Assembly: GCA_021323535.1 (NCBI GenBank)
Contig: JAJONO010000002.1
Location: 62,001-126,000 of the forward strand
Source: Bacteroidota bacterium
Lineage (GTDB): Bacteria; Bacteroidota; Bacteroidia; B-17B0; Aurantibacillaceae
DNA length: 64,000 nt
Direction of reading: 5' to 3'
The translations under genes were made by a program, and so were the position numbers. Shown piece by piece: positions 26,663 to 43,338 of this stretch. Under the pieces are notes generated by a model that searched no databases, had not been told where the DNA came from, and worked only from the letters and a program-made list of their open reading frames with translations. How positions within the stretch are numbered: the first letter of the stretch is position 1; each line of letters opens with the position of its first letter.

Positions 26663-26823
26663 CTAAACTCTTACAGCAACAATAAGCACATCCATTCGTC
26701 TGCGCTCCATCGGTCGCCAACCGCGTGTCGCTGAAGCTTTAGCGGAGGCACAAGGCTTGCCAACGGCGTAGCGGGGCAAGCTACTCTGTTTGCAATCAAA
26801 TTCTTATTCCTATAATGCAAACA
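26663..26823 (-). repeat. SpoIIE 3'-end module, locus A
   Basis: Read on the minus strand, it has an 8 bp inverted repeat TGTTTGCA / TGCAAACA (arms 26816-26823 inside the last codons and 26787-26794 just after the stop), the core AGAGTAG, a palindromic insert (GCTTGCC...GGCAAGC; CGCTAAAGCTTCAGCG), then a second degenerate copy of the gene end at 26692-26663 reading D-V-L-I-V-A-V-R-V-stop. Loci B and C have the same plan without the extra insert of about 65 bp. Confidence 0.65.
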
Positions 26824-28844
26824 TCGTCTACCTGCTCCAGGTTTCCGCGCCATTCTTCAAATTTTTTATCCAGAATTTCTTTTTGCTCTGCAGGATCTTT
26901 TTCGAAGATGTCCATTAATAAAGTTTCAAGTTGTTTATACTTAAATTTCTTTCCTTTTGGTCCTCCAAACTGGTCGGCGTAACCATCAGAAAAAACATAT
27001 AACATATCGCCTTTATTCAAATCAATGACATGATTAGTAAACGGAAGCGATTTTCCCATAAAGTAACCAATGGGACGTTTATCAGCGACATAATGGTTCA
27101 TACCAACCTCGCCGTTCTTTTTAGTGCAGATCCATAACGGATTATTTGCTCCTGCATATTCCACCTGAGAATTATCCTCGTTGAAACAAACCAGCGCCAT
27201 ATCCATCCCATCTCTTGATGCGCCAACTTCTCCGGTTTGTTTCAGTGATGACTTTACCCTGTTACGTAATTCGCCAAGTATTTCGGAAGGTTTTAAAACG
27301 CCTTGTCCGTTCACGATTTCGTTCAGGAACGCGCTTCCCAACATACTCATTAAAGCGCCAGGCACGCCATGCCCTGTACAATCCACTGCAGCAACAATTT
27401 TCTGTCCATTCTTCCTGGCGTACCAATAAAAGTCGCCGCTAATAACATCTTTGGGCTTAAAGAGAATAAATGAATCAGGAAACAGCGGGGTTTCATTTTC
27501 CATTGGAGGAAGAATTACTTCCTGGATACGTTTCGCGTAATTAATAGAGTCAGTAATATCTTTGTTTTTCTCTTCAATGATCTTTTTCTGATGAGAAATT
27601 TCTACGAGAGATTGTTTCTTTTGTTTATATCCTTTAAAAATGAAAAATAACAGCGCCGTCATTAATACAAGTCCAAAGAAGCTGACATAGATCACAAACG
27701 ATTTTTCGCGCGACTCGAGAGAACTCTTTTCAATTTCCAGATCTTTTACTTTCAGCTCGCGATCCTTCTTATCGGTCTCGTACTTTGTTTGCATATCCGC
27801 GATTTGTTTCGCGTTACTTTCTGAATGAAGAGAATCCCGCGCAACCTGGTATTTTCCAAGGTAAAAAGACGCGCTATCGGGTTTACCAAGATAGGCTGAT
27901 GTTACAATAAGATCAGCCGAAGAGGCTTTAATAAATTCAAGGCTGTTTATTTCACGTGCAAGATTGTATGATTTCAAAAAATACTGATGAGAGATCTTCC
28001 AGTCTTTAAGATGCAGGTGACTTAAGCCGAGATAATAATTGAGTTGCGACAATGATCTTGGATCGTTAAACGATAAATAGATCGGAAGTATTCTGTTATA
28101 ATAGGAAATGGCCTTCTCATGATCTTTATTCTCCGAATAGTTTTGCGCTAGGCTTATGTATGCATCCGCTATCAGAACAGAATCACCTGCAATCCTGGCA
28201 TTCTCAATGCACCTGTTCATGTAACTGAGAAATTCTGTCTGCGTGCTTTTACGATCGAGACATGAGGCAATATTAAGACAGCACGACGCGATTCCGTAAT
28301 TATCCTTGCTTTGTTCCCTGATCTTTAATGAGCGTTTAAAATAGGACAGGGCCTTTTCGTTTTCCTGTCGTTGAAAATAAACAGCACCCAGATTATTGCA
28401 GGCACGGGCAATAGCAACGCTATCACCTAGCGCTTCTGCCACATTCAGAGTTTTTATATAATTGCGGATCGCTTCCGGAAACTTTCCCTGGTAATCGTAA
28501 CAGATTCCAATGTTAGAATACGCGTCACACAATCCTTTATTGGATTCTGACGCTTCAAAAAACTTAATGGCTTCATTAAAATAAGTAATAGCCGTATCAT
28601 ACTTTCCCTCGTATAAATAACAAAGAGCGATGTAATTCTTTCCTAATCCCCTTCCCTTTGTATATTTTTTTTCACTGGATTCCTTATAAATTTTATCCGC
28701 TAAATATTTCGCCGAATCCAGGTTTGTTTTTAAATGATTACGAAAACGCTCAGCCAGTTTTGCAAAATAGATGCTGTCGTTCTGAGAGAACAATTTTCCA
28801 CCCAGGAATAACATTAGAAAAATATATTTGTGATAACAACGCAA
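26796..28844 (-). CDS. Membrane-anchored TPR-SpoIIE/PP2C phosphatase A
   Basis: About 680 residues. Signal/anchor peptide, about seven TPR repeats in the presumed periplasm (NIGICYDYQGKFPEAIRNYIKTL, NNLGAVYFQRQENEKALSYFKRSL and others), a membrane span (VIYVSFFGLVLMTALLFFIF, near residue 400), a coiled coil with DITDSINYAKRIQ, and the cytosolic SpoIIE phosphatase domain (GDFYWY, VDCTGHGVPGALMSMLG, VFSDGYADQFGG, DDVCIIGIRI). Expected to sense an external signal through the TPRs and dephosphorylate a regulatory protein. I chose the TTG at 28844 (MRCYHKYIFLMLFLGGK); TTG at 28889 is possible. Last gene of an apparent NarX-NarL-SpoIIE-SpoIIE operon. Confidence 0.88.
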   Translation of the reverse strand: MRCYHKYIFLMLFLGGKLFSQNDSIYFAKLAERFRNHLKTNLDSAKYLADKIYKESSEKKYTKGRGLGKNYIALCYLYEGKYDTAITYFNEAIKFFEASESNKGLCDAYSNIGICYDYQGKFPEAIRNYIKTLNVAEALGDSVAIARACNNLGAVYFQRQENEKALSYFKRSLKIREQSKDNYGIASCCLNIASCLDRKSTQTEFLSYMNRCIENARIAGDSVLIADAYISLAQNYSENKDHEKAISYYNRILPIYLSFNDPRSLSQLNYYLGLSHLHLKDWKISHQYFLKSYNLAREINSLEFIKASSADLIVTSAYLGKPDSASFYLGKYQVARDSLHSESNAKQIADMQTKYETDKKDRELKVKDLEIEKSSLESREKSFVIYVSFFGLVLMTALLFFIFKGYKQKKQSLVEISHQKKIIEEKNKDITDSINYAKRIQEVILPPMENETPLFPDSFILFKPKDVISGDFYWYARKNGQKIVAAVDCTGHGVPGALMSMLGSAFLNEIVNGQGVLKPSEILGELRNRVKSSLKQTGEVGASRDGMDMALVCFNEDNSQVEYAGANNPLWICTKKNGEVGMNHYVADKRPIGYFMGKSLPFTNHVIDLNKGDMLYVFSDGYADQFGGPKGKKFKYKQLETLLMDIFEKDPAEQKEILDKKFEEWRGNLEQVDDVCIIGIRI

Positions 28845-28864
28845 GATTCTCTGAGCTTTAAAGT

Positions 28865-28932
28865 TGTTTAATAGTTTAAGACAGTTCAAATAGTCTTTTG
28901 AACAATTTTAAACTTCTTTAAACAATTTTGAG
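28865..28932. repeat. TTTAAAC-rich intergenic tract
   Basis: Clustered GTTTAA, GTTCAA and TTTTAAAC units on both strands between phosphatase genes A and B. A similar tract lies at 60391-60475 upstream of the vWA gene. It is simple AT-rich sequence and its role is unknown. Confidence 0.45.
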
Positions 28933-28934
28933 AT

Positions 28935-29030
28935 CTAAACGCGAATTCCAATTATACAAACATCCCTTCGACAGTCCTCAGGGCAGGCTACTCCGTATGC
29001 TATTATATTCTTATTCCAATTACGCATACG
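28935..29030 (-). repeat. SpoIIE 3'-end module, locus B
   Basis: Minus strand: inverted repeat CGTATGC / GCATACG (arms 29024-29030 in the last codons, 28994-29000 after the stop), core GGAGTAG, a spacer with CCTGCCCTGAGGACTG, then a 30-base second copy of the gene end at 28964-28935 reading D-V-C-I-I-G-I-R-V-stop. That copy matches the coding version closely (GTTTGTATAATTGGAATTC against GTATGCGTAATTGGAATAA). Confidence 0.75.
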
Positions 29031-31168
29031 TCGTCAACCTGTTCCAGTTTTCCTTTCCAGCTTTCGAAAGTTGATTCCAATTGTATTTTCTGATCTTTCA
29101 ATTGATGTTCAATCATCAACAAAAGAATTTCTTTCATCTGCGAATATTTGAACTTCTTTCCTTTTGGTCCGCCAAACTGGTCGGCGAAACCGTCGCTGAA
29201 AATATATAAGACGTCTCCTTTATGAAGATCGATCTCATGATTGGTAAAAGGAAGAGATTTTCCCATGAAATAACCTATCGGTCGTTTATCTGCAGTATAT
29301 TGAATTACTTCCCAGCTTCCCGAACGTTTGGTAAACAACCAGAGCGGGTTATTTGCTCCGGCAAATTCAACTTTTGTATTCCCTTCGTAAAAAGAAAGAA
29401 GCGCCATATCCATTCCATCCTTCGACTCCCCTACTTCACCGGTTTGTTTTAAAGATGTTTTTACTTTGTTTCTCAACTCGCTTAAAATTTCCGAAGGCCG
29501 AACAATTCCTTTTTCATTTACAACTTCATTAAGGAAGGCGGTTCCGATCATACTCATTAAAGCACCCGGGACACCATGCCCTGTACAATCCGCCGCTGTA
29601 ATTATTTTACGATCATTCTTTTTGTTATACCAGTAAAAATCGCCGCTGATAACATCCTTCGGTTTATAAATGACAAAAGTTTCCGACAAAAAATCAGGGC
29701 TTATTTCAGGTGAGGGTAAAATCACTCCCTGTATTCTCTGTGCGTAATTAATGGAATCGGTAATATCTTTATTCTTCTCTTCAATGATTTTATTTTTCTC
29801 AGAAAGTTCAACCAGGGATTGTTTCTTTTGTTTGTATCCCCTGAAAATAAAAAAGGCCATTCCTATTACCAGAATAAATCCTCCTATGAACGCGTTACGT
29901 TGTGTTTCCTTTTGTTTTGTTTTAAGGGCCTCTTCCTTAATCTGTGAATTCTGTTCAAGTATTCTTCTATCCTTTAACTCGGTGTCGTACTTTGTTTGCA
30001 TTTCGGTCATTTGCTCCGAACGTTCCACATTGAGTACCGAATCTTTTATAGCTTCATATTTTTTTCTGTACAAAAGCGCGTTTTTAAGATCGCCTTCTCC
30101 TTCAAAATCTTTCGCAATGGCGTCGTAAAGCGTAACGCGTTCTTCCCTTAAACCATTTTTCAAAATAATGTCAAGGGCTTTAAAATGATTCTCCTTGGCG
30201 AGTTTTATATCTTTGAGTGCAAAATAATCGGCTCCGAGATTAATATATGAAGAGGCAATTCCTAACTCATCGCCAAGTGATTCTTTAATAGCCAGTGATT
30301 TTTGGTTAGCGCGAATGGCGGATTGATAATCTCCAAGGTCGTAATACACGCCACCAAGATTATTGTAACACAAACCCTGCCCCTGGGGATTTTCTATTTC
30401 GGTAAACTTACGTAACGCGTCTTCGTAATATCGTTTAGCGATAAGGTCCTTCTCGTCGAAATCGTAAATAATCCCAATGTTAAGAATTGTATTGGCCAGG
30501 CTTTTTACGTCAAGTGGATTTTTCATATTCGCTTTACGTTTCTTCATATCAAGCGCCTTATTAAAGTAGATGAGCGCTTTATCATAATCCTGAATTCCTT
30601 TATATACAAGCCCAAGGTTATTATACGCAGAAGCTGTCATGAGCGTATCTCTTATCTCTTCGGCAATGCGGGCCGACTCGAGACAGTATTTCATTGCGTT
30701 CTGAAAATCGCCGCGAATGATATAACCCTGTCCGATGTTTCCGTTGGAAGCAGCGATTCCTTTTTTCCATTTTATTTCTTTACGGAGTTCCAGCGCCTTT
30801 AAATGGAAATAGATGACCGAGTCTGGCATACCCAGAACATTATATACATTTCCAAAAGCGAATAAGACATTGCTCTCTCCTTTTTTATCTTTTATCTTTT
30901 CGGAGAGTTTAAGGGCCTGATCACCTATACGAAGAGCCTTATCCGGATCAAATGCCGTATAATTCACACAGAGGTGATAGTACGTAATAACCTTGTTGGT
31001 GTCTTCTTTTGAGTTTTTAAGTACAAGTTCCAGCGAATCAATAATGCGTTTTTTACCAACCGGAATTTTCGCTTGTGATTTTATGGTTAAAGAAAAAAGG
31101 AAAAATACACAGAAAACAATTATCTGCACATTAAAAACCTTTTTTGTATAATTATTTGATAGCCGCAA
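29003..31168 (-). CDS. Membrane-anchored TPR-SpoIIE/PP2C phosphatase B
   Basis: 721 residues. N-terminal signal/anchor (NVQIIVFCVFFLFSLTIKSQ), about eight TPRs (AYNNLGLVYKGIQDYDKALIYFNKAL, NLGGVYYDLGDYQSAIRANQKSL), a coiled coil (MTEMQTKYDTELKDRRILEQ), a membrane span (NAFIGGFILVIGMAFFIFRG, near residue 435), the DITDSINYAQRIQ linker and a SpoIIE domain with all acidic metal motifs (GDFYWY, ADCTGHGVPGALMS, FSDGFADQFGG, DDVCVIGIRI). Close paralogue of phosphatase A. The start is TTG at 31168, needed for the signal sequence. It begins 34 bp after the NarL-type regulator gene, so it is likely in the same transcript. Confidence 0.9.
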   Translation of the reverse strand: MRLSNNYTKKVFNVQIIVFCVFFLFSLTIKSQAKIPVGKKRIIDSLELVLKNSKEDTNKVITYYHLCVNYTAFDPDKALRIGDQALKLSEKIKDKKGESNVLFAFGNVYNVLGMPDSVIYFHLKALELRKEIKWKKGIAASNGNIGQGYIIRGDFQNAMKYCLESARIAEEIRDTLMTASAYNNLGLVYKGIQDYDKALIYFNKALDMKKRKANMKNPLDVKSLANTILNIGIIYDFDEKDLIAKRYYEDALRKFTEIENPQGQGLCYNNLGGVYYDLGDYQSAIRANQKSLAIKESLGDELGIASSYINLGADYFALKDIKLAKENHFKALDIILKNGLREERVTLYDAIAKDFEGEGDLKNALLYRKKYEAIKDSVLNVERSEQMTEMQTKYDTELKDRRILEQNSQIKEEALKTKQKETQRNAFIGGFILVIGMAFFIFRGYKQKKQSLVELSEKNKIIEEKNKDITDSINYAQRIQGVILPSPEISPDFLSETFVIYKPKDVISGDFYWYNKKNDRKIITAADCTGHGVPGALMSMIGTAFLNEVVNEKGIVRPSEILSELRNKVKTSLKQTGEVGESKDGMDMALLSFYEGNTKVEFAGANNPLWLFTKRSGSWEVIQYTADKRPIGYFMGKSLPFTNHEIDLHKGDVLYIFSDGFADQFGGPKGKKFKYSQMKEILLLMIEHQLKDQKIQLESTFESWKGKLEQVDDVCVIGIRI

Positions 31169-31202
31169 GAGCTACTAAATTAACAAAAAAAGCCCAGTGT
31201 GT

Positions 31203-31835
31203 TTAAAAAACAAGGCCCTTTTCTACAACAATACGCGTGAGAGAGGCCACATTGTGGATGTTGAGTTTTGTAAAAATATTATTCTTATGTACATCCACCG
31301 TTTTAGGGCTGATAAATAATTTTTCAGCTATTTCACGGGAAGTATTTCCGCCTATTATGAGTTTGATAACATCAAGCTCACGTTGGGTAAGCGTTGCCGA
31401 CCGTTCGGACACCGAGTTTTTTTCTTCTACGAGTTTATTGGAACATGATCGGTGAACGTAAACATCACCTTTATGCACCGAAATAATGGCATCGAACAAT
31501 TCCTCCTTCGACGCGATCTTAGGAAGAAAGCCTTTTACACCTGCCTGAAACATTTTCTTAATATAACCTGCCTCTGAATGCATAGTTAAGGCCAGTACTT
31601 TTACCCATGGCGTTGTGTTATTAATAATTCCAGTTGCTACAATTCCATCAAGTATGGGCATGTTGATATCCATTAACACAAGATCCACTTTTCTGATTTT
31701 TATCTGGTCAATGACTTCTTGTCCGTTGCCAACACAGGCCACAACCTCCATATCGGGCCTGCTTTGAATAAGTACCTGCCAGGCTTCTCTTAAAAGCGTG
31801 TAATCATCCGCTATTACAATTTTTATCTTATTCAT
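31203..31835 (-). CDS. NarL/FixJ-family response regulator
   Basis: 210 residues. Receiver domain with acidic pocket ADD (10-11) and phospho-acceptor Asp56 in VLMDINMP, plus Lys in GFLPKIASKEEL; then a LuxR-type helix-turn-helix (about 143-205; LTQRELDVIKLIIGGNTSREIAEKLFISPKTVDVHKNNIFTKL). DNA-binding regulator of the adjacent NarX-type kinase, whose gene overlaps this one by eight bases (31828-31835). Targets unknown; the two phosphatase genes directly downstream suggest cross-talk. ATG start. Confidence 0.93.
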   Translation of the reverse strand: MNKIKIVIADDYTLLREAWQVLIQSRPDMEVVACVGNGQEVIDQIKIRKVDLVLMDINMPILDGIVATGIINNTTPWVKVLALTMHSEAGYIKKMFQAGVKGFLPKIASKEELFDAIISVHKGDVYVHRSCSNKLVEEKNSVSERSATLTQRELDVIKLIIGGNTSREIAEKLFISPKTVDVHKNNIFTKLNIHNVASLTRIVVEKGLVF

Positions 31836-33234
31836 ATACTTGTTTAACTTTTTTCTTTAAATCGTTCTTATTTTTCTTGTTGGTCGGAAGGGAACTATAG
31901 TTATTGAACATTCCAAAAACAACGGATATGCTGGTTCCTTCATTAAGTGTAGAATTAATTATGGCGTGGGTTTGCAGTAGTTCGGCGCGCAGGTTAATAT
32001 TTTTGAGGCCATTGCCGGGATTGATCTTTTCCTTATTGAAGCCGGTTCCATTATCTTTTATCTGAAGACTCACAAGGCGAAGATCAGTTTGTAATCTTAC
32101 GGTTATATGTGAGGCCTGTGAATATTTAAGGCTGTTATTAAGGGCTTCCTGCGCGATCCGGAAAATATGAAGCTTACGATCTGGTGAAAGAAGTTTGTAA
32201 TTGCTGGAATTATCTACATTCAGACTTACCTGCATTTTTCCTGGAATAGTAGATTGAGAGCACAATTCAAAAAGCAGATCGCAGATATTTTCAGAAGCAA
32301 GATCGATTGGCTGAAGATTGTAAGAGATATTTCTTAGTTCTTCGATGGCGTTGGCAATCAATCCGGCCAGCTCCTTCATTTTTCCGGAATTTTTCCCATC
32401 AGGAATTTCCACCGATTCCATTTGAATCTTAATGACCGTAAGTAATTGTCCGACTCCATCATGAATTTCTCTCGAAATACGTTTACGCTCTGTTTCCTGG
32501 CTGGACAAAGCCGAGCGAATGGATGCTTTGCGCCTGTCATCGATCGCGTTTACCAGGAGTTGATTGCTTCTTAAGAGTTGTTTTTTGAGTTCTTTGGAAG
32601 CTTTGATCTGACTAATGATCAGAAACACAAGAAGCGCAACAAACGTGAGGAGGTTGAGAAAGAAGGAACTCCTCATATCCATTACAGTTTTAAGTGATTC
32701 GGAATAAATGGTCGGAAAAATAACGAGGCAGATGAATAATCCGGCCAATGGATACACAATGTGAAATACAGAATGGATGTTATCGCGTTTGATGAGATTG
32801 GAGTTAACAAAGGTGGCAATCAGGATGGAGATGAAAAAGTAAAGATAATATCCACCTTGTGCGTTTTCGTTGTTGAAAGTATAATACTCCAAAAAAACAA
32901 GCTGAAAGGATGTTAGAAAATGAATGAAATGTCCGGATAATTCAACCTTGCCGATCCATTTAAATGCCTGACCAATAACCAGGAAAAAACCAATCAGGAG
33001 TATAAGCATCACTTTGTTTAAATCGTGGGAAAAGAAGTAGTTGATGGATCCCAGGAAAAAAACAATGGAGACAAAAACAACGGTGATACGGTTTGTATGA
33101 ATAATATAAGCTTCTACCTGTTTATTTTGCTGATCCATAAACGGAACATTGTTCGTTCCAATATGGCTCCAGCGGCGAAACTGTTTAAACAAAAAGTGTT
33201 TTATCAGTCTGAATAAATGAACCAATGCCTGCAT
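31828..33234 (-). CDS. NarX-type sensor histidine kinase
   Basis: 468 residues. Residues about 45-215 carry six membrane spans (for example ITVVFVSIVFFLGSINYFF, SFFLNLLTFVALLVFLIIS) with almost no extracytoplasmic domain. Then comes a HisKA_3 dimerisation domain with the phospho-acceptor His in ETERKRISREIHDGVGQLLTV (about residues 250-270) and a HATPase domain (EALNNSLKYSQASHITVRL, IKDNGTGFN, GNGLKNINLRAELL). The signal is probably membrane-borne. First gene of the operon with the NarL regulator and two SpoIIE genes; divergent from the LytS-type kinase genes. ATG start. Confidence 0.92.
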   Translation of the reverse strand: MQALVHLFRLIKHFLFKQFRRWSHIGTNNVPFMDQQNKQVEAYIIHTNRITVVFVSIVFFLGSINYFFSHDLNKVMLILLIGFFLVIGQAFKWIGKVELSGHFIHFLTSFQLVFLEYYTFNNENAQGGYYLYFFISILIATFVNSNLIKRDNIHSVFHIVYPLAGLFICLVIFPTIYSESLKTVMDMRSSFFLNLLTFVALLVFLIISQIKASKELKKQLLRSNQLLVNAIDDRRKASIRSALSSQETERKRISREIHDGVGQLLTVIKIQMESVEIPDGKNSGKMKELAGLIANAIEELRNISYNLQPIDLASENICDLLFELCSQSTIPGKMQVSLNVDNSSNYKLLSPDRKLHIFRIAQEALNNSLKYSQASHITVRLQTDLRLVSLQIKDNGTGFNKEKINPGNGLKNINLRAELLQTHAIINSTLNEGTSISVVFGMFNNYSSLPTNKKNKNDLKKKVKQVYE

Positions 33235-33390
33235 TTTTTTCCTCCCCCAGCACCTTTTTGGTACTGATTTTAATTCAAATTTATCGTATACCGTTAAGAG
33301 CTATTTGATTCAATTAATATAAAAGGGAGCACAATTAACCAAATAGTCTTTTTAATTAATGAAATATGAATCAATTGAATCTGTGATACT

Positions 33391-33398
33391 TACCTTAG
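33391..33398 (+). promoter_or_regulatory. Possible -7 box, first TPR-LytS gene
   Basis: TACCTTAG, one mismatch from TAnnTTTG, ends four bases before the ATG at 33403. The same eight bases occur at the same place before the second kinase gene (35444-35451). If real, both messages would be almost leaderless. Confidence 0.4.
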
Positions 33399-33402
33399 TT
33401 AC

Positions 33403-35304
33403 ATGCTGATATCCTATTTTAAAAACTGTCTGCCTTTACTTTTAGTAATTAATTTATCCCCAAAAAAGTTTAAATCCTTATCAGCACCGGGATTCCAGCC
33501 AGTTTCTTACGATTCAGAAGGTCCGGTAAAGGGGGGGGATCCGGAATTGTCGGTCAGCACTCCAACTCTGTTATCTTATCCCAACAATCCTAACCCTGAT
33601 AAGAAACAGGTTTTTAAAAAGCTGTTTAACGAAGTAGAAAAAATAAAACGATCGGGTGATCTAAAAGAACTTTTCAAAATATACTCTCTTTTAGGTTCAA
33701 GATATTATGAGAACAACGATTATGTGAGCTCGCTCAGATACTATGGTATGGCGCTTGAACAATTCAAAGGGAACCCTTCTGATACTAATTATGTTGAAGT
33801 ACTGGTAAGAACAGGGGTCATTAATAGCGAAATGAGAAATCATGAAATTGCTTACACTATTTTTAAGAAAGCTATTACAATTCTTGAGCACATGGAAGGA
33901 GAAAACCATGCGCTTAGCTACAAGTATTACCTGAACATGGCTTCGGAATATTACCGCCTGGATAAGATCCCCGAAGCGGAGAGTTATTACAGAACACACC
34001 TCAAACACAGTATACTTTTCAATGACAGCATACAGATCGGGAAAGCCTTATTCGGCTTATCAAGAATTGAACTACAAAAAAATAATCTTACTGAAGCGTT
34101 ACGGTTAGCGAAACAATCCTTTTCTATTTTATCTTCAAATAAAGCGGATAAAAAAACAAGAATGGTCTGCGCCCTTAATTTTAGTCATATCTACATACAT
34201 CTTAAGCAATATGACAATGCGCTAATCGAAGCAGAAAAAGCATTTACCCAGGCGCGGGAAGCTAATGATCTCAAAATATTGTCAGAGGCGGCTTTTCACC
34301 TTAAAACGATTTACTACGAAAAAAAGGATTACGAGTCCGCTTTCAACTACCAGGAATTTTACTCCCTGTTAAAAGACAGTTTGTTTAATCTGAATAAAAA
34401 ACTGGAGCTGTTCACCCAGAGTGTAAACTATGAGTTTGAGCAGAAAAGTAAACAGGACAGCCTTCACCACTCGTCTGTACGGCAAAAACTGGAGAATGAG
34501 CTGCAGATAAAAGAAGTAAAACAAAGATCGAACAATATCATTTTTTTTGCTGTGGGATTTGGAGTTGTCGCTGTTATGATGTTCTATTTTTACGCGCACA
34601 AACAAAATCGTCAGAAACAACAGATCGAATATGAAAAGAGACTTTCAGAAGCCAAAATCACTACCCTTATTGCCCAGATCAATCCTCACTTTGTTTTTAA
34701 TTCCCTAAATTCCATTCTCTCGTTTATTCAAAGTTCGAACAAAGAAGAGGCTATAAAATACCTGAGTAAATTTTCGAAAATTGTGCGGCTCATCCTTGAG
34801 GGTTCTAACCAGCAAACTGTAACAGTAAACGATGAAATGCAATTACTCCGCTTATATGTCGAACTGGAACAATTGCGTAATGATCATCAATTTGATTTCA
34901 CCATCGAGGTTGGGGAGGAAATAGACCGGTTCAATACTGAAATACCTGTGATGATGCTTCAACCGTTCATTGAAAACGCTATTCTTCACGGCATTCAGAA
35001 TAAAATCAGTTTATCGAAAGAAATAAAAGTTGATTATCGTGGTTTGTTAAACATCAGTTACGAGCAAAAAGGGAGTAAAATCGTATGCTCTATAAAGGAC
35101 AATGGGGTTGGAAGAAAAAAAAGCAGGGAGCTTATGCATGAAAGTATGTTCCGGTACCGCTCCATGGGCCCCGAATTTGTTGAAAAACGACTTGAGCTTC
35201 TTACCGGCAGTGCCTGTTGTATTAAATATAATGACATTTATCATGAACTCACCAATGAACCCGTTGGAACCGAGGTTGTCATAGAATTGCCTATAATGAA
35301 CTGA
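33403..35304 (+). CDS. TPR-LytS-type sensor histidine kinase 1
   Basis: 633 residues. A hydrophobic N-terminus, a linker carrying a G8 tract (33531-33538), about six TPRs (about 75-330), one membrane span (NNIIFFAVGFGVVAVMMFYFYAH, about 378-400) and a His_kinase/LytS-type domain. The phospho-acceptor His is in AQINPHFVFNSLNSILSFIQ (about 425-445), with the HATPase motifs MLQPFIENAILHGIQNK and IKDNGVGRKKS. The partner is expected to be the LytTR regulator at 37484. Paralogue of the next gene, with near-identical kinase core but diverged TPRs. ATG start. Confidence 0.92.
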   Translation: MLISYFKNCLPLLLVINLSPKKFKSLSAPGFQPVSYDSEGPVKGGDPELSVSTPTLLSYPNNPNPDKKQVFKKLFNEVEKIKRSGDLKELFKIYSLLGSRYYENNDYVSSLRYYGMALEQFKGNPSDTNYVEVLVRTGVINSEMRNHEIAYTIFKKAITILEHMEGENHALSYKYYLNMASEYYRLDKIPEAESYYRTHLKHSILFNDSIQIGKALFGLSRIELQKNNLTEALRLAKQSFSILSSNKADKKTRMVCALNFSHIYIHLKQYDNALIEAEKAFTQAREANDLKILSEAAFHLKTIYYEKKDYESAFNYQEFYSLLKDSLFNLNKKLELFTQSVNYEFEQKSKQDSLHHSSVRQKLENELQIKEVKQRSNNIIFFAVGFGVVAVMMFYFYAHKQNRQKQQIEYEKRLSEAKITTLIAQINPHFVFNSLNSILSFIQSSNKEEAIKYLSKFSKIVRLILEGSNQQTVTVNDEMQLLRLYVELEQLRNDHQFDFTIEVGEEIDRFNTEIPVMMLQPFIENAILHGIQNKISLSKEIKVDYRGLLNISYEQKGSKIVCSIKDNGVGRKKSRELMHESMFRYRSMGPEFVEKRLELLTGSACCIKYNDIYHELTNEPVGTEVVIELPIMN

Positions 35305-35443
35305 TTCGCCTCTTCAACTTCTTTAAGTCCATCTAAGCCGATTTAGTAGAATAGGCTTATCACAAGCGGCTTTTCGCTTAACAAAACGCCATTCTCGATT
35401 AACGAAAACAATGCGCTTTTAGCTGTTTTATCTTTAAAATCTA

Positions 35444-35451
35444 TACCTTAG
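35444..35451 (+). promoter_or_regulatory. Possible -7 box, second TPR-LytS gene
   Basis: TACCTTAG, identical to the box at 33391-33398. It is followed directly by ATG TAG CTG AAA, where CTG at 35458 gives the best signal peptide. Confidence 0.4.
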
Positions 35452-35457
35452 ATGTAG

Positions 35458-37473
35458 CTGAAAACCCCTTCCCAACATATTATTTTATTGCTTTTTTTGT
35501 GCTTTAAATTTGTCAATAGCCAGGTTAATTATACTCAGCTGTATGAGAAAATAAGAAAAGGCGATACTGCTTTTTTAAAGAATTCGGAATCTTCCGCGGC
35601 CTCATTATTTACTGATACAAAAGGAGGCGTACAAAGCAAATTAAAAAGCTTAAACATTAAAAACACGTCTTCACAGTTTTACTATATTCTCTGCCACTCG
35701 CATATTGAGAATATGCGTAATGAAAAAGGTTCAGAAATACTTAAAGATCTTCTTATCGCTCACCAGATTGCAAAAGCGTCAAAGAACAATGATCTCCAGT
35801 TTGTGATTTACCGGGAACTCGGAGACTATTATCTCCGTCATTACGATTACTCGAGTTCGCTCAGGTATTTCAATCTCGCCAAAGAAATATATACCGGAAA
35901 AACAACCGAGGAAGCCTTTTTAGATATCGTTCTGAAAATTGCAAAGATCAATGGGGAGGGAGATAACACAAAATTCGCCCTTGATGAGCTTAACAAAGTT
36001 CTGAATACTCTAAATCATAATCCAAAAGATATACCCCGAATGCGGGCGCAGGTCTACCAGGGGCTGGGAGCGATGAATCTGCGCGAAAAAAAAATTGAAC
36101 TATCGAAAGAATATTATCAGAAGGCCTACGACATATTTGCTTCTCTGAAAGACACCATCGGCATGTCCCGATCTGTACTGGGCTTCGGAATTATCCAGGG
36201 TGTTCTCGGATCTATTGAACAACGTAACGGAAACAACAAAAATGCCAGAACACATTTTAAAGCTTCACTGGATCAATACAAAACCGCTGAGAAAATAGTA
36301 AGTCCTCTCATTACCGGAAATGATCTCAGGTGGGGAATTATGCTTTATATCTGCGATGCTCACATTTCACTTAACAATCTGAAACAGGCAACCATTCTTG
36401 CCGAAAGGGTTTATAATGAATCAGCCGAAGCAAAAAAAATGCGAATCACAATGGATGCATGCTTGTTTCTCACTGAAATTTTTAATGCGGAAAGAAATTT
36501 TGAGAAAGCGCTAAAGTATAACAGCCGTTATGTTATTCTGAGAGATAGTATTTTAAGTGTTGACCGTTCACATGATCTTCTCATCCAAACCATCAGTTTT
36601 GAATTTAACCAGAAAGCCAAAGCCGACAGTCTCAAATTCATAAGTGAAAAACAGAGACTTGAACATGCGCTTCAATTAAAAGAAGTTAACCAACGGATCA
36701 TCTACATTATTTTTGCCGGCCTTGTGGTGATAGTAGGACTGATCATTGCTTTTTATCTTTACGCGGTGAGACAGAAAAAGCAGGAACAGAAAATTGAATT
36801 TGAACGCAAGTTATCTGAGGCAAAAATCACAACATTACTTGCGCAAATCAATCCTCATTTTGTTTTCAACTCCCTTAATTCCATCCTTTCTTTTATTCAG
36901 AACTCAAATAAGGAAGAAGCTATAAAGTATCTTTCCAAGTTTTCGAAAATAATCCGGCATGTTTTGGAAGGTTCCGACAAGCAAACTGTTTCGGTGCATG
37001 ATGAAATCACTATTCTAAAACTTTATATCGAGCTCGAACAATTGAGATACAACCATCTGTTCGATTTCGATATCAGGGTTAATCCTTCTATTGATAAATT
37101 CAACACCGAAATTCCGGTAATGATGCTTCAACCCTTTATTGAAAACGCACTTATTCACGGAATTCAGAATAAGATCAGAATAAGCCGAGAATATAAAGTA
37201 AGTTACAAAGGCGAACTTATTGTTAATTATACTCAGCTGAGTAATAAAATAGTTTGCACTGTGACAGACAATGGCATTGGAAGAAAAAAAAGTTATCAAT
37301 TAAAGAACGAAAATTTTTTCGGACACCGCTCGCTTGGTATAAAATTCACGGAAAAAAGACTGGAGCTATTGAGCAGAAACGAGTGCAGAATTATTTATAA
37401 CGACCTTCATGACACTAAAACAAATGAACCAACAGGAACAGAAGTTATTGTAGAATTACCGATATTAAATTAA
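35458..37473 (+). CDS. TPR-LytS-type sensor histidine kinase 2
   Basis: 672 residues if read from CTG at 35458, which gives a proper signal sequence (M-KTPSQHIILLLFLCFKF). An ATG exists two codons earlier but is followed at once by TAG, and the next ordinary start (TTG 35488) removes the basic part of the signal. TPR repeats fill about 60-395, the membrane span is IIYIIFAGLVVIVGLIIAFY (about 412-432), then the kinase domain follows with AQINPHFVFNSLNSILSFIQ, MLQPFIENALIHGIQNK and VTDNGIGRKKS. The LytTR regulator follows after ten bases, so this pair is one transcript. Same output domain as kinase 1, different sensor part. Confidence 0.88.
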   Translation: MKTPSQHIILLLFLCFKFVNSQVNYTQLYEKIRKGDTAFLKNSESSAASLFTDTKGGVQSKLKSLNIKNTSSQFYYILCHSHIENMRNEKGSEILKDLLIAHQIAKASKNNDLQFVIYRELGDYYLRHYDYSSSLRYFNLAKEIYTGKTTEEAFLDIVLKIAKINGEGDNTKFALDELNKVLNTLNHNPKDIPRMRAQVYQGLGAMNLREKKIELSKEYYQKAYDIFASLKDTIGMSRSVLGFGIIQGVLGSIEQRNGNNKNARTHFKASLDQYKTAEKIVSPLITGNDLRWGIMLYICDAHISLNNLKQATILAERVYNESAEAKKMRITMDACLFLTEIFNAERNFEKALKYNSRYVILRDSILSVDRSHDLLIQTISFEFNQKAKADSLKFISEKQRLEHALQLKEVNQRIIYIIFAGLVVIVGLIIAFYLYAVRQKKQEQKIEFERKLSEAKITTLLAQINPHFVFNSLNSILSFIQNSNKEEAIKYLSKFSKIIRHVLEGSDKQTVSVHDEITILKLYIELEQLRYNHLFDFDIRVNPSIDKFNTEIPVMMLQPFIENALIHGIQNKIRISREYKVSYKGELIVNYTQLSNKIVCTVTDNGIGRKKSYQLKNENFFGHRSLGIKFTEKRLELLSRNECRIIYNDLHDTKTNEPTGTEVIVELPILN

Positions 37474-37483
37474 ATAAATATAT

Positions 37484-38245
37484 ATGTACACAACCGTAAT
37501 TATTGAAGACGAACAACAAAGTATTGAATACCTTAAATCAATGCTTAAAGAAGTAAGTCAGGATATTAATTTTGTAGGAGCCGCGCAGAATCTAAAAGAC
37601 GGCGTTAACCTGATCAATGAAGTAAATCCTGATCTTGTTTTTCTCGATATTAAACTTAACAGCGATACCGGATTTGATGTGCTTGACCAGGTCAAGGACA
37701 AATCATTTAATGTGATCTTCACTACAGCGTATGAGCAATATGCACTTAAAGCCATTAAATTCGCAGCAATAGACTACCTTCTTAAGCCTATTGATAAAAA
37801 TGAACTGATAGAAGCTGTTGCAAAAATCAAAAACAGGAAAGACAGCCTGAGCCTTCAGAAAAGCCTTTCTGTCTTTTTTGAGAATGTGAATAAACCACAA
37901 AAACAGAAAATAGCTATATCAACGGTTTCTTCACTGATAGTTGTTGAAATCGCTGATATTCTGTATTGCTCTGCCGATGGGCCCTATACCAACTTTTACC
38001 TGAAGAATGGTCCCGAAAAAATAATGAGTTCAAAAAACCTCAAGGAATATGAAGAACTTCTTACCGATCATGATTTTTTCAGGATACACAAATCGTATCT
38101 CGTAAATCTTAAAGAGGTAAAACAATATCTGAAGGCAGATGGAGGAAAATTAAAAATTTCGAACAACGTTTTACTTGATGTTTCAGAAAAGAAAAAAGAA
38201 GATCTGATAAAAGTGCTTTCGAAAGAGGTACATTTTCTTAAGTAA
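37484..38245 (+). CDS. LytTR-family response regulator
   Basis: 253 residues. Receiver domain with EDE (8-10), phospho-acceptor Asp55 in LVFLDIKLN and DYLLKPIDKNEL; then a LytTR DNA-binding domain (about 150-250; ISTVSSLIVVEIADILYCSADGPYTNFYLKNG, FRIHKSYLVNLKEVKQYLKADGGKLKISNN). Probable common target of the two TPR-LytS kinases encoded directly upstream. ATG start; a terminator follows. Confidence 0.94.
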   Translation: MYTTVIIEDEQQSIEYLKSMLKEVSQDINFVGAAQNLKDGVNLINEVNPDLVFLDIKLNSDTGFDVLDQVKDKSFNVIFTTAYEQYALKAIKFAAIDYLLKPIDKNELIEAVAKIKNRKDSLSLQKSLSVFFENVNKPQKQKIAISTVSSLIVVEIADILYCSADGPYTNFYLKNGPEKIMSSKNLKEYEELLTDHDFFRIHKSYLVNLKEVKQYLKADGGKLKISNNVLLDVSEKKKEDLIKVLSKEVHFLK

Positions 38246-38271
38246 TAATCATTCCTTTTTTTATAATAATC

Positions 38272-38297
38272 GAGGGCAGCTTAAACGCTGCCTTTTT
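38272..38297 (+). terminator. Terminator after the LytTR regulator gene
   Basis: Stem GGCAGC / GCTGCC around TTAAAC (38275-38292), followed by T5. Good intrinsic terminator 27 bp after the stop. Confidence 0.85.
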
Positions 38298-38472
38298 ATT
38301 TCATGACATATGATTAGTTCTTCAAGCTTATCATTTTGATAATGAATAAACACATTAGGTAAAACTACTTACTGTCGCTTAGGTAGCCTTCCCTATTTTG
38401 ATTTTATTACTGTTCTCTTTGCTTTACAATAAGAGCTCCATGGTTGTAAACTTGTATTAACAACAAACAACC

Positions 38473-40998
38473 ATGAAAAAATTTACCCTCCTATTTTACT
38501 TTGCCCTGTTAGTTATTTTATCTCAGAACTCATTTTCTCAAAATTATACCTGGAACGGGTCTATAAGCAGTTCCTGGGCTGTTGGAACAAACTGGACTCC
38601 CGTAGCTCCTGCGGGAGGACCCGGTGCAGCAAACAATGTTATTATTAATGGCGGTACACCGTTCAGTCCGCAACTTGTAGCTAACGTTACCATTACCAAT
38701 CTTACAATGAATGCCGGAAGTGTTTTAAATGTGGGCGCATTTGTAATTACCACTGTAGGTAACACCAACCTGACAAGTTGTACACTTGCAGGTACAACAG
38801 GAAACATACAATTTAACGGTAACAGCAATATCATCAGCGCATTAACCTGCAACATCCCTTTTAACGTCAACGGATTCTGGACCATTACCAACTCTACTTT
38901 TTCGCAGCCTGTTACCATGGTGAGAAGCGGAGGGAATACCATTAATTCGAGCGGAGGCAATACTTATAATAATACTGTATCAATTATCAATAACAGTTCC
39001 GGAGCAGGTGGACATTTCCGTTACGGTGTTACAAATCCCGATGTATTTAATTCAACCGTTACGGCAGAGGCTCAAACAAGTGTAGCGCAGATTCACTTTG
39101 CGTATAATTCGGCAGGAAATAGCTTTAATGGGAACATTACAGTAACATCTATTTTTGCAGGTGCCGGCCCTGTTATAAGTTTTGGTATTCTTGGCGGCAC
39201 AACTACATTAAATGCGGGAGTCGCTATCGTTGAAGGAGGAGTTGGTTTTTCGGGAGGACTCCTTGATATAAGGAACCTAACCCAACTGGGAAATACGGCG
39301 CAAACACTGGATCTCTCATGGCCAGGCGCACTCTCAGCCTCAGCACTTGTTTTAAATATTGGTCCAAATGTAATTTTTAACGGCAATGTTAACTATACCG
39401 CTTCCAATATACTGGTTCAATCCACCACGTTCAATGGTCCAACTTCTACAGGTCTTACCAAAGTAGTGAATGGCGGATCAATAAACTCCTGGTTTGGTGC
39501 AAACACGTTTAACAGCGCAACCACTACAATAATGAATTCAACAGGATCTTCCGAATTGAGGATGGCCACAGTTTCTCCCGATGTGTTTAACAGCGCTACA
39601 ACCATTTTCCACAGAACTACCAATAGCTGCATAATAAATGTTGCATACACAGGAATAAATACTTTTTTTGGTGATGTTACGGTAAGTTCTTCCGGAGGGC
39701 TCGCAGGAACAGCAATTACTTTTGGAGCAGGCGGAGGAACAGCTTTATTTACCGGTTCAAATTCCCAGATAATTAATAAACCAACTGCAGCCATGGTGCC
39801 GCCGGTATTCTGCCGTCTTGATATCAATAAAGCAGCGCAAGCCGTAACTCTCAATTCACCGATTACAGTTTCTGTAAACCTTTCTCTTAACAATGGTATA
39901 TTATTTACGAATATTACCAAGATACCAACTCTTATTCCAGGAGCAGTAACAAATATAGGAAGCCCTGTAAGTTACGTTTGTGGACCCATTATTTGCCAGG
40001 TGGCCTCAGCAGGGACGAGTACTTTAATATTACCGGTTGGCAAAAACGGACTTCACCGTCCGGCCCTTTTATCAGTTAATCACACTAATGCGACTATAAC
40101 CTCTTACACAGCGGAAGTTATTCATTCCTCGGCAATGGCCTTAGCCTATACAATGCCTCCTACTTTAAGCCTGGTTTCAGGCGTGCGTTACTGGCAGATA
40201 GACAGACAAGCTGTTGCCAATTTCAATGATGCCCAGGTAACTTTGTATTATGGGGCCGACGATGGAGTGGCTGACCCCACTAATCTGAGAGTTGCGAAAA
40301 CGTTTGGAGCTGGCACAACATGGAACGATGTTGGAGGAACAGGATCGGGAGCACCAACCGGCAGCATTACATCAGTTCCATTTACAACATTCAGTAAGTT
40401 CACACTCGCAAATAATGGCGCTATTGGTTTTAATCCGCTTGGTAACGTTGTTTTACCAATTGAGCTTATTGACTTTGCAGCTAAACCTGAAAACAAAAAA
40501 GTAAAACTAATATGGGAAACAGCCACAGAAACAAATAATAAATTTTTTACTGTAGAACGTTCATCAGATGCCGTAAACTTTGAAACGGTGATTACCATTG
40601 AGGGAGCCGACAATAGTGACCATCACAGAAACTATTCCGTATATGACAATAATCCTTTGAAGGGAATTTCATATTACCGTTTAAAGCAAACGGATCATTT
40701 AAGAGGAACCTCTTATTCAAATCTAAAAACAGTTCATTACACACACTCCGGAGAAAGAATGATCTTATTTCCAAATCCTGCAGAATCAGAAATTAATTTA
40801 AGTTATTTATCAGAAAAGGATGAAACTATCATTACAAAAGTCTTAGCATTTGATGGCAGAACCATCGCTGAATCTAAAATGGATGTAAAAGAAGGTTCGA
40901 ATAACTTAAGAGTAAATATTGAAGAACTCAGTAAAGGAATTTACACTCTTGAAGTAAATGGAGATCAGCAGACATATCTGAAATTTTCAAAAAAATAA
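38473..40998 (+). CDS. Secreted beta-rich protein with type A T9SS sorting domain
   Basis: 841 residues. Signal peptide (MKKFTLLFYFALLVILSQNS), YTWNGSISSSWAVGTNWTPVAPAGGPG (the short W-N repeat often heading Bacteroidota autotransporter-like beta-helices), then a long Gly/Asn/Thr-rich beta-solenoid with partial repeats (NPDVFNSTVTAEAQTSV, SPDVFNSATTIFHRTTN). The C-terminal type A sorting domain is ILFPNPAESEINLSY ... GIYTLEVNGDQQTYLKFSKK. Exported by the type IX system. Function unknown, perhaps an adhesin. No cysteine-rich or catalytic motif seen. ATG start; three small genes of unknown role follow. Confidence 0.9.
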   Translation: MKKFTLLFYFALLVILSQNSFSQNYTWNGSISSSWAVGTNWTPVAPAGGPGAANNVIINGGTPFSPQLVANVTITNLTMNAGSVLNVGAFVITTVGNTNLTSCTLAGTTGNIQFNGNSNIISALTCNIPFNVNGFWTITNSTFSQPVTMVRSGGNTINSSGGNTYNNTVSIINNSSGAGGHFRYGVTNPDVFNSTVTAEAQTSVAQIHFAYNSAGNSFNGNITVTSIFAGAGPVISFGILGGTTTLNAGVAIVEGGVGFSGGLLDIRNLTQLGNTAQTLDLSWPGALSASALVLNIGPNVIFNGNVNYTASNILVQSTTFNGPTSTGLTKVVNGGSINSWFGANTFNSATTTIMNSTGSSELRMATVSPDVFNSATTIFHRTTNSCIINVAYTGINTFFGDVTVSSSGGLAGTAITFGAGGGTALFTGSNSQIINKPTAAMVPPVFCRLDINKAAQAVTLNSPITVSVNLSLNNGILFTNITKIPTLIPGAVTNIGSPVSYVCGPIICQVASAGTSTLILPVGKNGLHRPALLSVNHTNATITSYTAEVIHSSAMALAYTMPPTLSLVSGVRYWQIDRQAVANFNDAQVTLYYGADDGVADPTNLRVAKTFGAGTTWNDVGGTGSGAPTGSITSVPFTTFSKFTLANNGAIGFNPLGNVVLPIELIDFAAKPENKKVKLIWETATETNNKFFTVERSSDAVNFETVITIEGADNSDHHRNYSVYDNNPLKGISYYRLKQTDHLRGTSYSNLKTVHYTHSGERMILFPNPAESEINLSYLSEKDETIITKVLAFDGRTIAESKMDVKEGSNNLRVNIEELSKGIYTLEVNGDQQTYLKFSKK

Positions 40999-41001
40999 AA
41001 C

Positions 41002-41103
41002 ATGAGAATATTACCAGAATTATTCGGAAGAAAAAGAATTTTCGGTTTAATTACCGTATTAGTAACCGTATTTACCGCAACAGTTTTCATTTTAAATAAT
41101 TAA
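41002..41103 (+). CDS. 33-residue putative small membrane protein
   Basis: Very short ORF starting four bases after the T9SS cargo stop: MRILPELFGRKRIFGLITVL followed by VTVFTATVFILNN. A basic patch (GRKR) precedes a clean single membrane span of about 18 residues, as in genuine small membrane proteins. No homologue is recognised. Support is only the start position, the composition and the tight packing in an apparent four-gene set (38473-41784). Confidence 0.45.
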   Translation: MRILPELFGRKRIFGLITVLVTVFTATVFILNN

Positions 41104-41126
41104 CACACTATAAACACAAACAGAAT

Positions 41127-41342
41127 ATGCACACATTTAACGACACCTACATTGTAAATTCCTCAGAGCTATCGACGGGTGAAATTGTACTCTGGATTGA
41201 AATAAACGGAATCCTGAAAAAAGTTCATAACGCAAAACTTAAACTCAACAGGATTCATAAGCATATCGAAATATCAGGGTCCGAAGGGAAAATTTCAATT
41301 AAACAATTTAAAGATCTTAAATTAACAGACGGCCTTATTTAA
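41127..41342 (+). CDS. Small cytosolic protein, unknown function
   Basis: 71 residues, basic, predicted beta-rich (STGEIVLWIEINGILKKVHNAKLKLN, KHIEISGSEGKISIKQFKDLKL). No known family recognised. Eleven bases before the next gene, so translationally linked with it. ATG start. Confidence 0.6.
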   Translation: MHTFNDTYIVNSSELSTGEIVLWIEINGILKKVHNAKLKLNRIHKHIEISGSEGKISIKQFKDLKLTDGLI

Positions 41343-41352
41343 CTAAAGGATC

Positions 41353-41784
41353 ATGTACTTCGCACTTCCCTATCGGGGATTATTAATAATTATCCTAAGG
41401 ATATGGATTGTCCTTATATTTTTACCTGTTTCCATTTTGGCTAATAATGGCAATCAATGTGGTACACAGGTCGCTAAAAGTAAGAAACCGGAACTTATTT
41501 CAAAACATGTATATCTCGGAAATACAGTTTTTATTTACAGAAGTGAAAGCGTTAATAATCCCTTTACTATAAAAATTCATGGTAAAACTTTGTCGAGAGA
41601 TTTTCTGATAATTGAAACAAATAATGATTCAAAAAAATACATTATGATTGAAAAGATCGGTGCTTCCTCAGTTCCCACAGATATCTCATGGGAATCACTT
41701 CAACACATATCCGTTGAAGATTTGGTAGAACACTGTAATGGTATTTTACTCAAAACCCTGAAATCAAAATCCAGGGAATCATGA
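41353..41784 (+). CDS. Small exported protein, unknown function
   Basis: 143 residues. N-terminal hydrophobic segment (GLLIIILRIWIVLIFLPVSILA) acting as a signal peptide or anchor, then a basic domain with two cysteines (NQCGTQ, EHCNGI). Not recognised. Convergent with mnmE, seven bases apart, with no obvious terminator between. Confidence 0.6.
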   Translation: MYFALPYRGLLIIILRIWIVLIFLPVSILANNGNQCGTQVAKSKKPELISKHVYLGNTVFIYRSESVNNPFTIKIHGKTLSRDFLIIETNNDSKKYIMIEKIGASSVPTDISWESLQHISVEDLVEHCNGILLKTLKSKSRES

Positions 41785-41791
41785 TCATAAG

Positions 41792-43189
41792 TTATTTCCC
41801 GATACAGAATCTTGTAAAAATAGAATCCAGCAGATCTTCGTTAGTAACCTGTCCGGTAATGGCACCCAGCTCTTCAAGCGCGTAGCGGATATCGAGCGCA
41901 AGAAGATCGCCGGCAATATTGCCGTTCAAACCTTCACTTACTTTATATAAAGCTTTTTCGGCGTTACGAAGCGCGTTAGCATGGCGGGCATTTGTAACAA
42001 TTGTGTCAGTAGCATTAATTGTTCTTGTATCAAAAAGGGAAACCAGTTTCTGCTTTAATACATCAATATTCTTATGATGCTTCGCCGAAATATAGATCAT
42101 TTCAGGAAACTGATTAAATTCCTTTCTTAAGTCGCTATCGTTTTCCACATCTATTTTATTAGCTACAAGAACGAGCTGCGAATCACCAATATGATCTTTA
42201 AGCATATCAATTTCCATTTTAAGATCGCCACTGCTTATCTCATGTGAATCGAAAAGATAAACGACGATAGCAGATTTACGGATCACTTCAAGCGCTTTGT
42301 TCACACCAATTTGTTCAATCACATCACTCGTGGTTCTTAACCCCGCAGTATCAATAAAACGGAACAAAACTCCATCAATGGTTATTTCATCTTCAATGGT
42401 ATCACGCGTAGTACCCGGAATATCACTCACAATGGCGCGATCATCATCCAACAAAGTATTCAATAAAGTAGATTTTCCTGCATTTGGCTTGCCAACAATA
42501 CCAACAGGAATTCCGTTCTTGATCACGTTTCCAACATCGAAACTATTGACGAGCTTTCCGATAACAGCAATGATCTTAGCAATGAGATTTTTAAGATCGT
42601 TCCTGTTCGCAAACTCCACATCTTCCTCGCTGAAATCAAGCTCAAGTTCGATCAACGCGGCGAAGTCGATCAGATTTTCGCGCAATAATCTTATTTTATT
42701 ACTGAAACCTCCACGCATCTGCTGCATGGCCACCTGGTGAGAGATAGCTGAATTACTGGCGATAAGATCGGCCACTGCTTCAGCCTGGCTAAGATCCAGT
42801 TTTCCATTGAGAAAAGCTCTCATGGTAAACTCGCCCGGTTGCGCCATTCTTGCTCCCGAACTCAGAAAGAGTTTTAATAACTGTTGCTGAATAAATAAAG
42901 AACCGTGACATGAAATTTCAACACTATCCTGACCTGTATATGAATTTGGTCCTTTAAAAATAGTAACGAGTACTTCGTCAATAATTATATCCTGGTGAAT
43001 AATGGTTCCAAAATGAACAGTATGACTCTTTTTATCAGTGAGCGATTTCCTTTTTTGTTCCTTCGAATAAAAATAGTCTTCAACCACACTAAAAGCATTG
43101 GGCCCGCTTAACCTTATTACAGCAATAGCCGAACTGCCATGGGCTGTTGCCAGGGCTACAATTGTATCGTTCGGCTGATAATTCGTCAT
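41792..43189 (-). CDS. mnmE: tRNA uridine-5-carboxymethylaminomethyl synthesis GTPase MnmE
   Basis: 465 residues. N-terminal tetrahydrofolate-binding domain (TIVALATAHGSSAIAVIRLSG, SYTGQDSVEISCHG), helical domain (RAFLNGKLDLSQAEAVADLI), inserted G domain (GIVGKPNAGKSTLLN, SDIPGTTRDTIED, DTAGLR, ANKID) and the invariant C-terminal CIGK. Works with MnmG to modify the wobble uridine of several tRNAs. ATG start. The 121 bp upstream hold the 3' module of the next SpoIIE gene. Confidence 0.97.
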   Translation of the reverse strand: MTNYQPNDTIVALATAHGSSAIAVIRLSGPNAFSVVEDYFYSKEQKRKSLTDKKSHTVHFGTIIHQDIIIDEVLVTIFKGPNSYTGQDSVEISCHGSLFIQQQLLKLFLSSGARMAQPGEFTMRAFLNGKLDLSQAEAVADLIASNSAISHQVAMQQMRGGFSNKIRLLRENLIDFAALIELELDFSEEDVEFANRNDLKNLIAKIIAVIGKLVNSFDVGNVIKNGIPVGIVGKPNAGKSTLLNTLLDDDRAIVSDIPGTTRDTIEDEITIDGVLFRFIDTAGLRTTSDVIEQIGVNKALEVIRKSAIVVYLFDSHEISSGDLKMEIDMLKDHIGDSQLVLVANKIDVENDSDLRKEFNQFPEMIYISAKHHKNIDVLKQKLVSLFDTRTINATDTIVTNARHANALRNAEKALYKVSEGLNGNIAGDLLALDIRYALEELGAITGQVTNEDLLDSIFTRFCIGK

Positions 43190-43244
43190 CGTTTAAATAT
43201 ACTAAATATTCGCGGCGCGAAGTTAAACAGTTTTTATGGAAAGG

Positions 43245-43338
43245 CTATAGCTTTATTCCAATAATGCAAACATTCCCTCACCTTCGTTCAGCACAGACTA
43301 CTCCGTTTGTTCAGATTCTAATTCCGATTATACAAACG
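43245..43338 (-). repeat. SpoIIE 3'-end module, locus C
   Basis: Minus strand: inverted repeat CGTTTGT / ACAAACG (arms 43332-43338 in the last codons, 43304-43310 after the stop), core GGAGTAG, a short spacer, then a 30-base second copy of the gene end at 43274-43245 reading N-V-C-I-I-G-I-K-L-stop. Confidence 0.75.

Follow-up and report, generated by a model that had tools for sequence, protein, structure and literature searches.

The window analysed here, the whole 64,000-nucleotide stretch from position 62,001 to 126,000 of contig JAJONO010000002.1 (Bacteroidota bacterium), contains three paralogous genes, A, B and C, whose stop codons are enclosed by inverted repeats. It is rather likely that these stems make up half of a REP-like miniature DNA element, non-autonomous and located at the 3' ends of genes, chiefly of SpoIIE paralogues but of tRNA-Asn as well. 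On the best reading the element is excisable and carries an arm matched to its target, and it probably acts as folded single-stranded DNA.

The inverted repeats are exact (26787-26823, 28994-29030 and 43304-43338), and each straddles the stop of a TPR+SpoIIE gene coded on the minus strand (Table 1). An earlier note on this DNA had described the three stems, and the positions, arms and between-locus differences were all found as it gave them; the core behind arm 2, the second gene end and the recurrence across the genus were not mentioned there. The order of the unit at A, B and C is the gene end with arm X1, then arm 2 (X'), then a core, then the gene end again. X' is an inverted copy of the gene's last codons (e.g. 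GCAAAC), the REP-like core follows the pattern GAGTAGC..CCTGAGC..GAAGGG, and behind the core the last ~30 bases of the gene appear once more. Compared with an empty site, the unit adds ~70 bp, composed of a 6-10 nt X' that complements the beginning of the duplicated target, a ~30 nt core that forms a hairpin with a GAG/GTAG foot, and an extra target end of ~30 bp at SpoIIE genes.

Covariation of arm 2 with the host gene

A single stem of 7-8 bp is unremarkable, since random pairings of gene ends with the downstream sequences of other genes give ~5 stems of at least 7 bp per 118. The three stems go beyond chance because they share a common register and change together, and pure chance is ruled out by this register and by shuffling. 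Covariation was measured on 33 distinct arms, one per orthologue set, anchored on the core. Paired cells amounted to 92.4%, compared to 84.4% after shuffling, and double changes were seen in 5 of the 8 pairs. The covariation score was 0.271 against 0.123 +/- 0.015 in shuffled sets (reached in 0 of 500), and slid controls did not exceed 0.073. With one locus taken from each orthologue set, arm 2 pairs at 6.95 of 8 positions with its own gene, compared to 6.12 with the arms of other genes (z 8.8; 0 of 20,000 shuffles). The compensatory variation between loci proposed in the earlier note is real and persists with many more sequences; the loss of significant pairs on adding sequences, which the note would have taken as refutation, did not occur. 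The excess over shuffled and slid controls agrees with a selected RNA structure, but it is a signal that a DNA-level structure or a templated arm would give equally.

All four pair types, A-T, G-C, T-A and C-G, occur at position 7, tracking Ile, Val and Leu codons. At the third position of Val, T-A, A-T and G-C were found in the covariation set, and a C-G case stands at the second gene of one tandem array (L215). At positions of the arm where the two copies of the gene end differ, X' matches copy 1 in 45 cases and copy 2 in 6; by locus, copy 1 is preferred at 19 and copy 2 at none.

Second gene ends, empty sites and the tRNA-Asn target

When copy 2 was located by a profile from which its own gene had been omitted, its best match was still its own gene (z 13 for nucleotides, z 12 for amino acids). 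Copy 2 is identical to copy 1 in 12 of 48 cases and retains the stop in 45 of 48. All three frames relative to the gene are used (19/18/11), and for this reason read-through past the stop codon into copy 2 is not supported. Differences between the copies fall on the three codon positions as 46/30/122, with 101 silent codons versus 52 replacements. Foreign gene ends derived from other paralogues are not a general explanation, as both copies keep residues of their own gene; at gene A of the window and at L059, however, the second ends are clearly different.

Occupied and empty alleles alternate among close species. The gene ALTEWQGDLEQI is occupied in genomes G019 and G006 and empty in G044, G045 and G007 (loci L226/L227 versus L228-L230), and in G006 copy 2 is followed by GATTTAAG, the native flank that the empty gene has in G044. 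Similarly, the gene FLDWKGDYEQV is occupied in G007, G045, G019 and G006 and empty in G021, G044, G053 and G012 (L232 and L235-L237 versus L233, L234, L238 and L239). Some homologues, those with empty sites, have no downstream arm, an outcome that the earlier note named as evidence against a selected stem. Such gaps would be natural for a mobile unit but not for a structure intrinsic to the mRNA.

Within the FLDWKGDYEQV set the unit is conserved in place. Four-fold sites of the gene body are nearly saturated (32-51% identity), while X' is 89-100% and the short cores are 81-97% identical; the longer core of G045 aligns at just 52-54%. Copy 2 shows 68-86% identity and the 40-nt flank 47-85%. All four orthologous cores carry the uncommon ACCC..GGGA variant, so that a single old insertion is likely. 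At position 7 of X1:X', the pair is T-A in G007 and G045 and C-G in G019 and G006; this switch is probably a compensatory change in place, with repeated insertion as the alternative.

The same core was found behind tRNA-Asn in G045, G007, G019, G006 and G021, where it is 80-97% identical in the five species. The layout there consists of the tRNA end GCCCAGGAGAGGGAGC, a terminator, X' CTGGGC, the core GAGAAGTTTATCCTGAGC..GAAGGA, a second tRNA end and another terminator. This X' (with variants CTTGGGC and CTGTGC) complements the GCCCAG of the tRNA. The loop of the stem holds the tRNA terminator and no stop codon. The shared architecture shows that the arm follows its target and can occur where there is no stop codon to enclose. 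A stop-codon-specific function is accordingly ruled out as the general role, and the structure acting in termination suggested in the earlier note falls with it in that general form. The unit is missing from the tRNA-Asn of G044, G001 and G012; the empty G044 gene bears the second terminator, and the empty G012 gene one like the first.

At the tRNA-Asn loci L350-L352, L376, L377 and L379, the core lies between two tRNA-Asn 3' ends, whose terminators differ from each other. Additionally, the acceptor-stem variant AGGGGGA of G007 (AGAGGGA elsewhere) is present in both tRNA-Asn copies, which suggests concerted evolution.

Table 1. Host genes and parts of the three units in the window (positions 1-64,000)
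Feature	Position	Strand	Sequence or product
Host gene A	26796..28889	-	TPR + SpoIIE (PF07228)
A gene 3' end (copy 1)	26796..26828	-	GAC GAT GTT TGC ... TGA, codes DDVCIIGIRI*; arm 1 TGTTTGCA = 26816-26823
A arm 2 (X')	26787..26795	-	TTGCAAACA, reverse complement of codons following second Asp
A core	26693..26786	-	GAGTAG + ~94 nt REP-like stretch rich in hairpins
A second SpoIIE gene end	26663..26692	-	codes DVLIVAVRV*
Host gene B	29003..31168	-	TPR + SpoIIE
B gene 3' end (copy 1)	29003..29035	-	DDVCVIGIRI*; arm 1 CGTATGC = 29024-29030
B arm 2 (X')	28994..29002	-	TAGCATACG
B REP-like core	28965..28993	-	GAGTAGCCTGCCCTGAGGACTGTCGAAGG
B second copy of gene end	28935..28964	-	DVCIIGIRV*
Host gene C	43311..45380	-	TPR + SpoIIE
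C gene 3' end (copy 1)	43311..43343	-	DDVCIIGIRI*; arm 1 CGTTTGT = 43332-43338
C arm 2 (X')	43304..43310	-	ACAAACG
C REP-like core	43275..43303	-	GAGTAGTCTGTGCTGAACGAAGGTGAGGG
C second copy of gene end	43245..43274	-	NVCIIGIKL*

The core of unit A is ~3 times longer than the others and has several predicted hairpins, with a terminator-like hairpin just downstream.

A proposed mobile element and its rivals

Units expand in tandem, and X' follows the target sequence from locus to locus. The element may move or be excised by recombination at the repeated gene end. One DNA strand would fold, with X1 paired to X' beside the core hairpin, as the form used by a recombinase or a replication fork, and X' would be written from the target at insertion or later be kept matched to it. 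The host gene is unbroken because a complete gene end remains on its side of the unit, and this would allow the element to persist in important genes or in highly repeated ones. The templated copying of the arm and the single-stranded recombination substrate, both raised in the earlier note, fit an inserted, apparently excisable unit that also occurs at tRNA-Asn better than a role at the stop codon does.

A more specific form of this proposal appears doubtful: X' would be a 6-10 nt guide, rewritten from each new target at insertion, so that each copy is addressed to its own host gene. Its pairing with the target gene end would continue beyond a GA/GA internal loop by a small number of extra pairs, which are GAC:GTC at SpoIIE genes and TTC:GAA at tRNA-Asn. 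The first core bases can pair again with the target past such a loop, as GAC GA T GTTTGC with GCAAAC GA GTC in SpoIIE and as TTC GA GCCCAG with CTGGGC GA GAA in tRNA-Asn, an extra pairing seen by eye in two target classes only.

Several observations weigh against the mobile element. No transposase or recombinase could be linked to it; the core lies near 0 of 32 Y1-transposase loci, and G006 has 11 unit matches and no Y1 match. Mobilisation by RAYT/Y1 was rejected on the lack of a linked gene. Changes in the arm are sometimes uncompensated (L062, L210, L220 and L172). Moreover, the differences between copies 1 and 2 are mainly silent even though copy 2 lies behind the stop and in any frame, which is not predicted by plain target-site duplication. 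The coding-like character of copy 2 is easier to explain with copy 2 as the native end and copy 1 brought in by the unit, or with frequent allelic recombination.

An unlikely alternative is a selected RNA structure, in which the X1:X' helix over the stop, together with the core hairpin, is retained for its effect on termination, on the stability of the mRNA 3' end or on the decay of SpoIIE mRNAs. Such a structure would account for the strong covariation with its four pair types at position 7, for the tracking of the translated copy rather than copy 2 (45 positions to 6), for the conservation of X' and core in place, and for the T-A to C-G change across orthologues of one locus, which probably occurred in place; the predicted folds are also stable (z -2.8 to -5.9). 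However, the same arrangement at tRNA-Asn has a terminator in its loop in place of a stop codon, only a minority of SpoIIE genes carry the unit, and occupied and empty orthologues alternate among close species. The excess of G-U over A-C cells is non-diagnostic, given codon constraint and mutation direction. The selected stem of the earlier note may still hold in part, since X' and the core are kept in place and arm 2 follows the gene copy, while the empty homologues and the tRNA-Asn copies point to a mobile unit.

Still less probable is the insertion of a mobile cassette of gene end, X' and core before the native end, which it replaces; the element would then have supplied copy 1, and copy 2 would be the original native end. 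The coding-like differences between the copies and the closing of arrays with a bare gene end agree with such a cassette, as does tRNA-Asn, where copy 2 precedes the terminator of the empty G044 gene and copy 1 another, like that of G012. Nevertheless, copy 1 keeps the residues of its own gene (VCLIGVKV, VLVVGIAI), and the unit would therefore have to derive from another allele of that gene; nor was a recombinase identified for this route. Neutral copying, with X' as a snap-back or quasi-palindrome product rewritten from the adjacent gene end during replication around an inert repeat, is very improbable: it accounts for target matching and partial mismatches with no dedicated enzyme, but it does not explain why the core is conserved and recurs at an identical codon, why X' tracks copy 1 when copy 2 lies at a similar distance, or why conservation goes beyond the neutral expectation.

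These units represent a natural replicated experiment: a single short DNA module recurs dozens of times at an identical codon in many paralogues, each time with an arm matched to the host, and tRNA-Asn adds a second target class. They make it possible to test directly how so small an element, with no known enzyme, finds gene ends, copies them and leaves them intact. They also warn against taking strong covariation around a stop codon as sure evidence of an mRNA regulatory structure.

Distribution and comparison with known systems

The window's genome has 94 SpoIIE domain matches, among them genes A, B and C. The unit was present at about a dozen of the SpoIIE 3' ends of this genome, a minority of the 3' ends read, including a tandem pair at L081; the search for the core motif elsewhere in the genome gave few further places. 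One orphan unit (L166, G000 C1:20059-20124) lies between hutI and aroC and has two SpoIIE-like ends without a SpoIIE body; it is either a moved copy or the relic of a deleted gene.

A covariance model of the unit matched 23 of 40 genomes of the same genus, with up to 19 matches per genome, and with the exception of the orphan all strong matches were at SpoIIE ends. The genus loci that were read have the same architecture, with tandem arrays at L172, L175, L176, L187, L215 and L218; such arrays terminate in a bare gene end. Cores can be specific to species, such as GAGTCAGTTTATCCTGAGC..GAAGGA, or GGAGGAAATCCCGAC..GTCGGGAT in G049. Loci from the covariance model are biased towards having a stem, a bias that does not apply to a core-only search blind to it. 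The latter gave 38 places in 8 genomes, comprising 29 SpoIIE ends (25 genes), 3 tRNA-Asn and 6 other repeats. At the class level, matches were weak only; a SpoIIE end with a core was seen in L359 (G125), and a SpoIIE end, core and second end in L360 (G255, another family). Literature searches found nothing matching the core sequence or such an arrangement.

The unit works most like REP elements and single-strand transposition and is a clean member of no family tested. REPs and REPINs (GTAG and CGTC superfamilies) are palindromic repeats of 20-40 nt behind genes, with a tetranucleotide foot and in clusters, proposed to be non-autonomous mobile DNA (PMC3733652, PMC3116915). The unit resembles them in its palindromic core behind genes and its clusters. 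Its foot is GTAG only in some species: GTAG directly precedes the palindrome in most units of the window's genome, and GAGTC, GGAGG or GAGAA stands there in relatives. The unit differs in being low-copy, mostly at the ends of one paralogous family, with a target-complementary arm and a duplicated gene end. REPs usually exceed 100 intergenic copies per genome and accompany a RAYT gene, whereas the unit has 0-19 matches per genome, concentrated at SpoIIE ends, and no link to Y1 loci.

IS200/IS605-type Y1 transposases and TnpA-REP use single-stranded DNA hairpins beside short guides, which are tetranucleotides and choose the cleavage site (PMC8266576, PMC6006769). The unit likewise places hairpins beside a short target-related sequence; it has, in contrast, a 6-10 nt target complement and a second gene end, and no linked tnpA was found. 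Transposition of the IS200/IS605 type makes no target duplication, whereas occupied orthologues of the host genes carry the gene end twice and empty ones carry it once. As the unit departs from REPs in copy number and RAYT linkage, and from IS200/IS605 in this duplication, it is regarded as a variant and not a member.

Tyrosine-recombinase islands at tRNA 3' ends restore the gene end on one side and displace the old end to the other. The unit shares with them a restored and a displaced end, att-like repeats, and tRNA-Asn as a target; it differs by its length of ~40-120 bp, too short for an integrase gene, its mainly protein-gene targets and its inverted target copy. Integron attC sites and cassettes involve a folded single strand at gene ends and arrays of short units. 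The unit also stands at gene ends in short-unit arrays, but its arm is target-specific, and the defining core sites R'' RYYYAAC and R' GTTRRRY are absent (arms read GTTTGC/GCAAAC, and GCCCAG/CTGGGC at tRNA).

The 94 SpoIIE/PP2C-type phosphatase matches, many TPR-fused, make an unusually large family for a 5.3 Mb genome, and other members of the genus are likewise rich in these domains. Most core-like repeats elsewhere (the GTCATCCTGAGC... and TGGTTAAA types) look like different repeat classes. Another intergenic class in the same genome (L093, L097 and L102) reads roughly ATGTGYCCGRRGCCTGCCCTGAGC..GAAGGGTGGTTAAA, with AAACC/GGTTT arms in some copies. At L324 (G053 C18:374340), a non-SpoIIE site and possibly a third target, a core lies between the inverted repeats AGTCCTTCTC/GAGAAGGATT.

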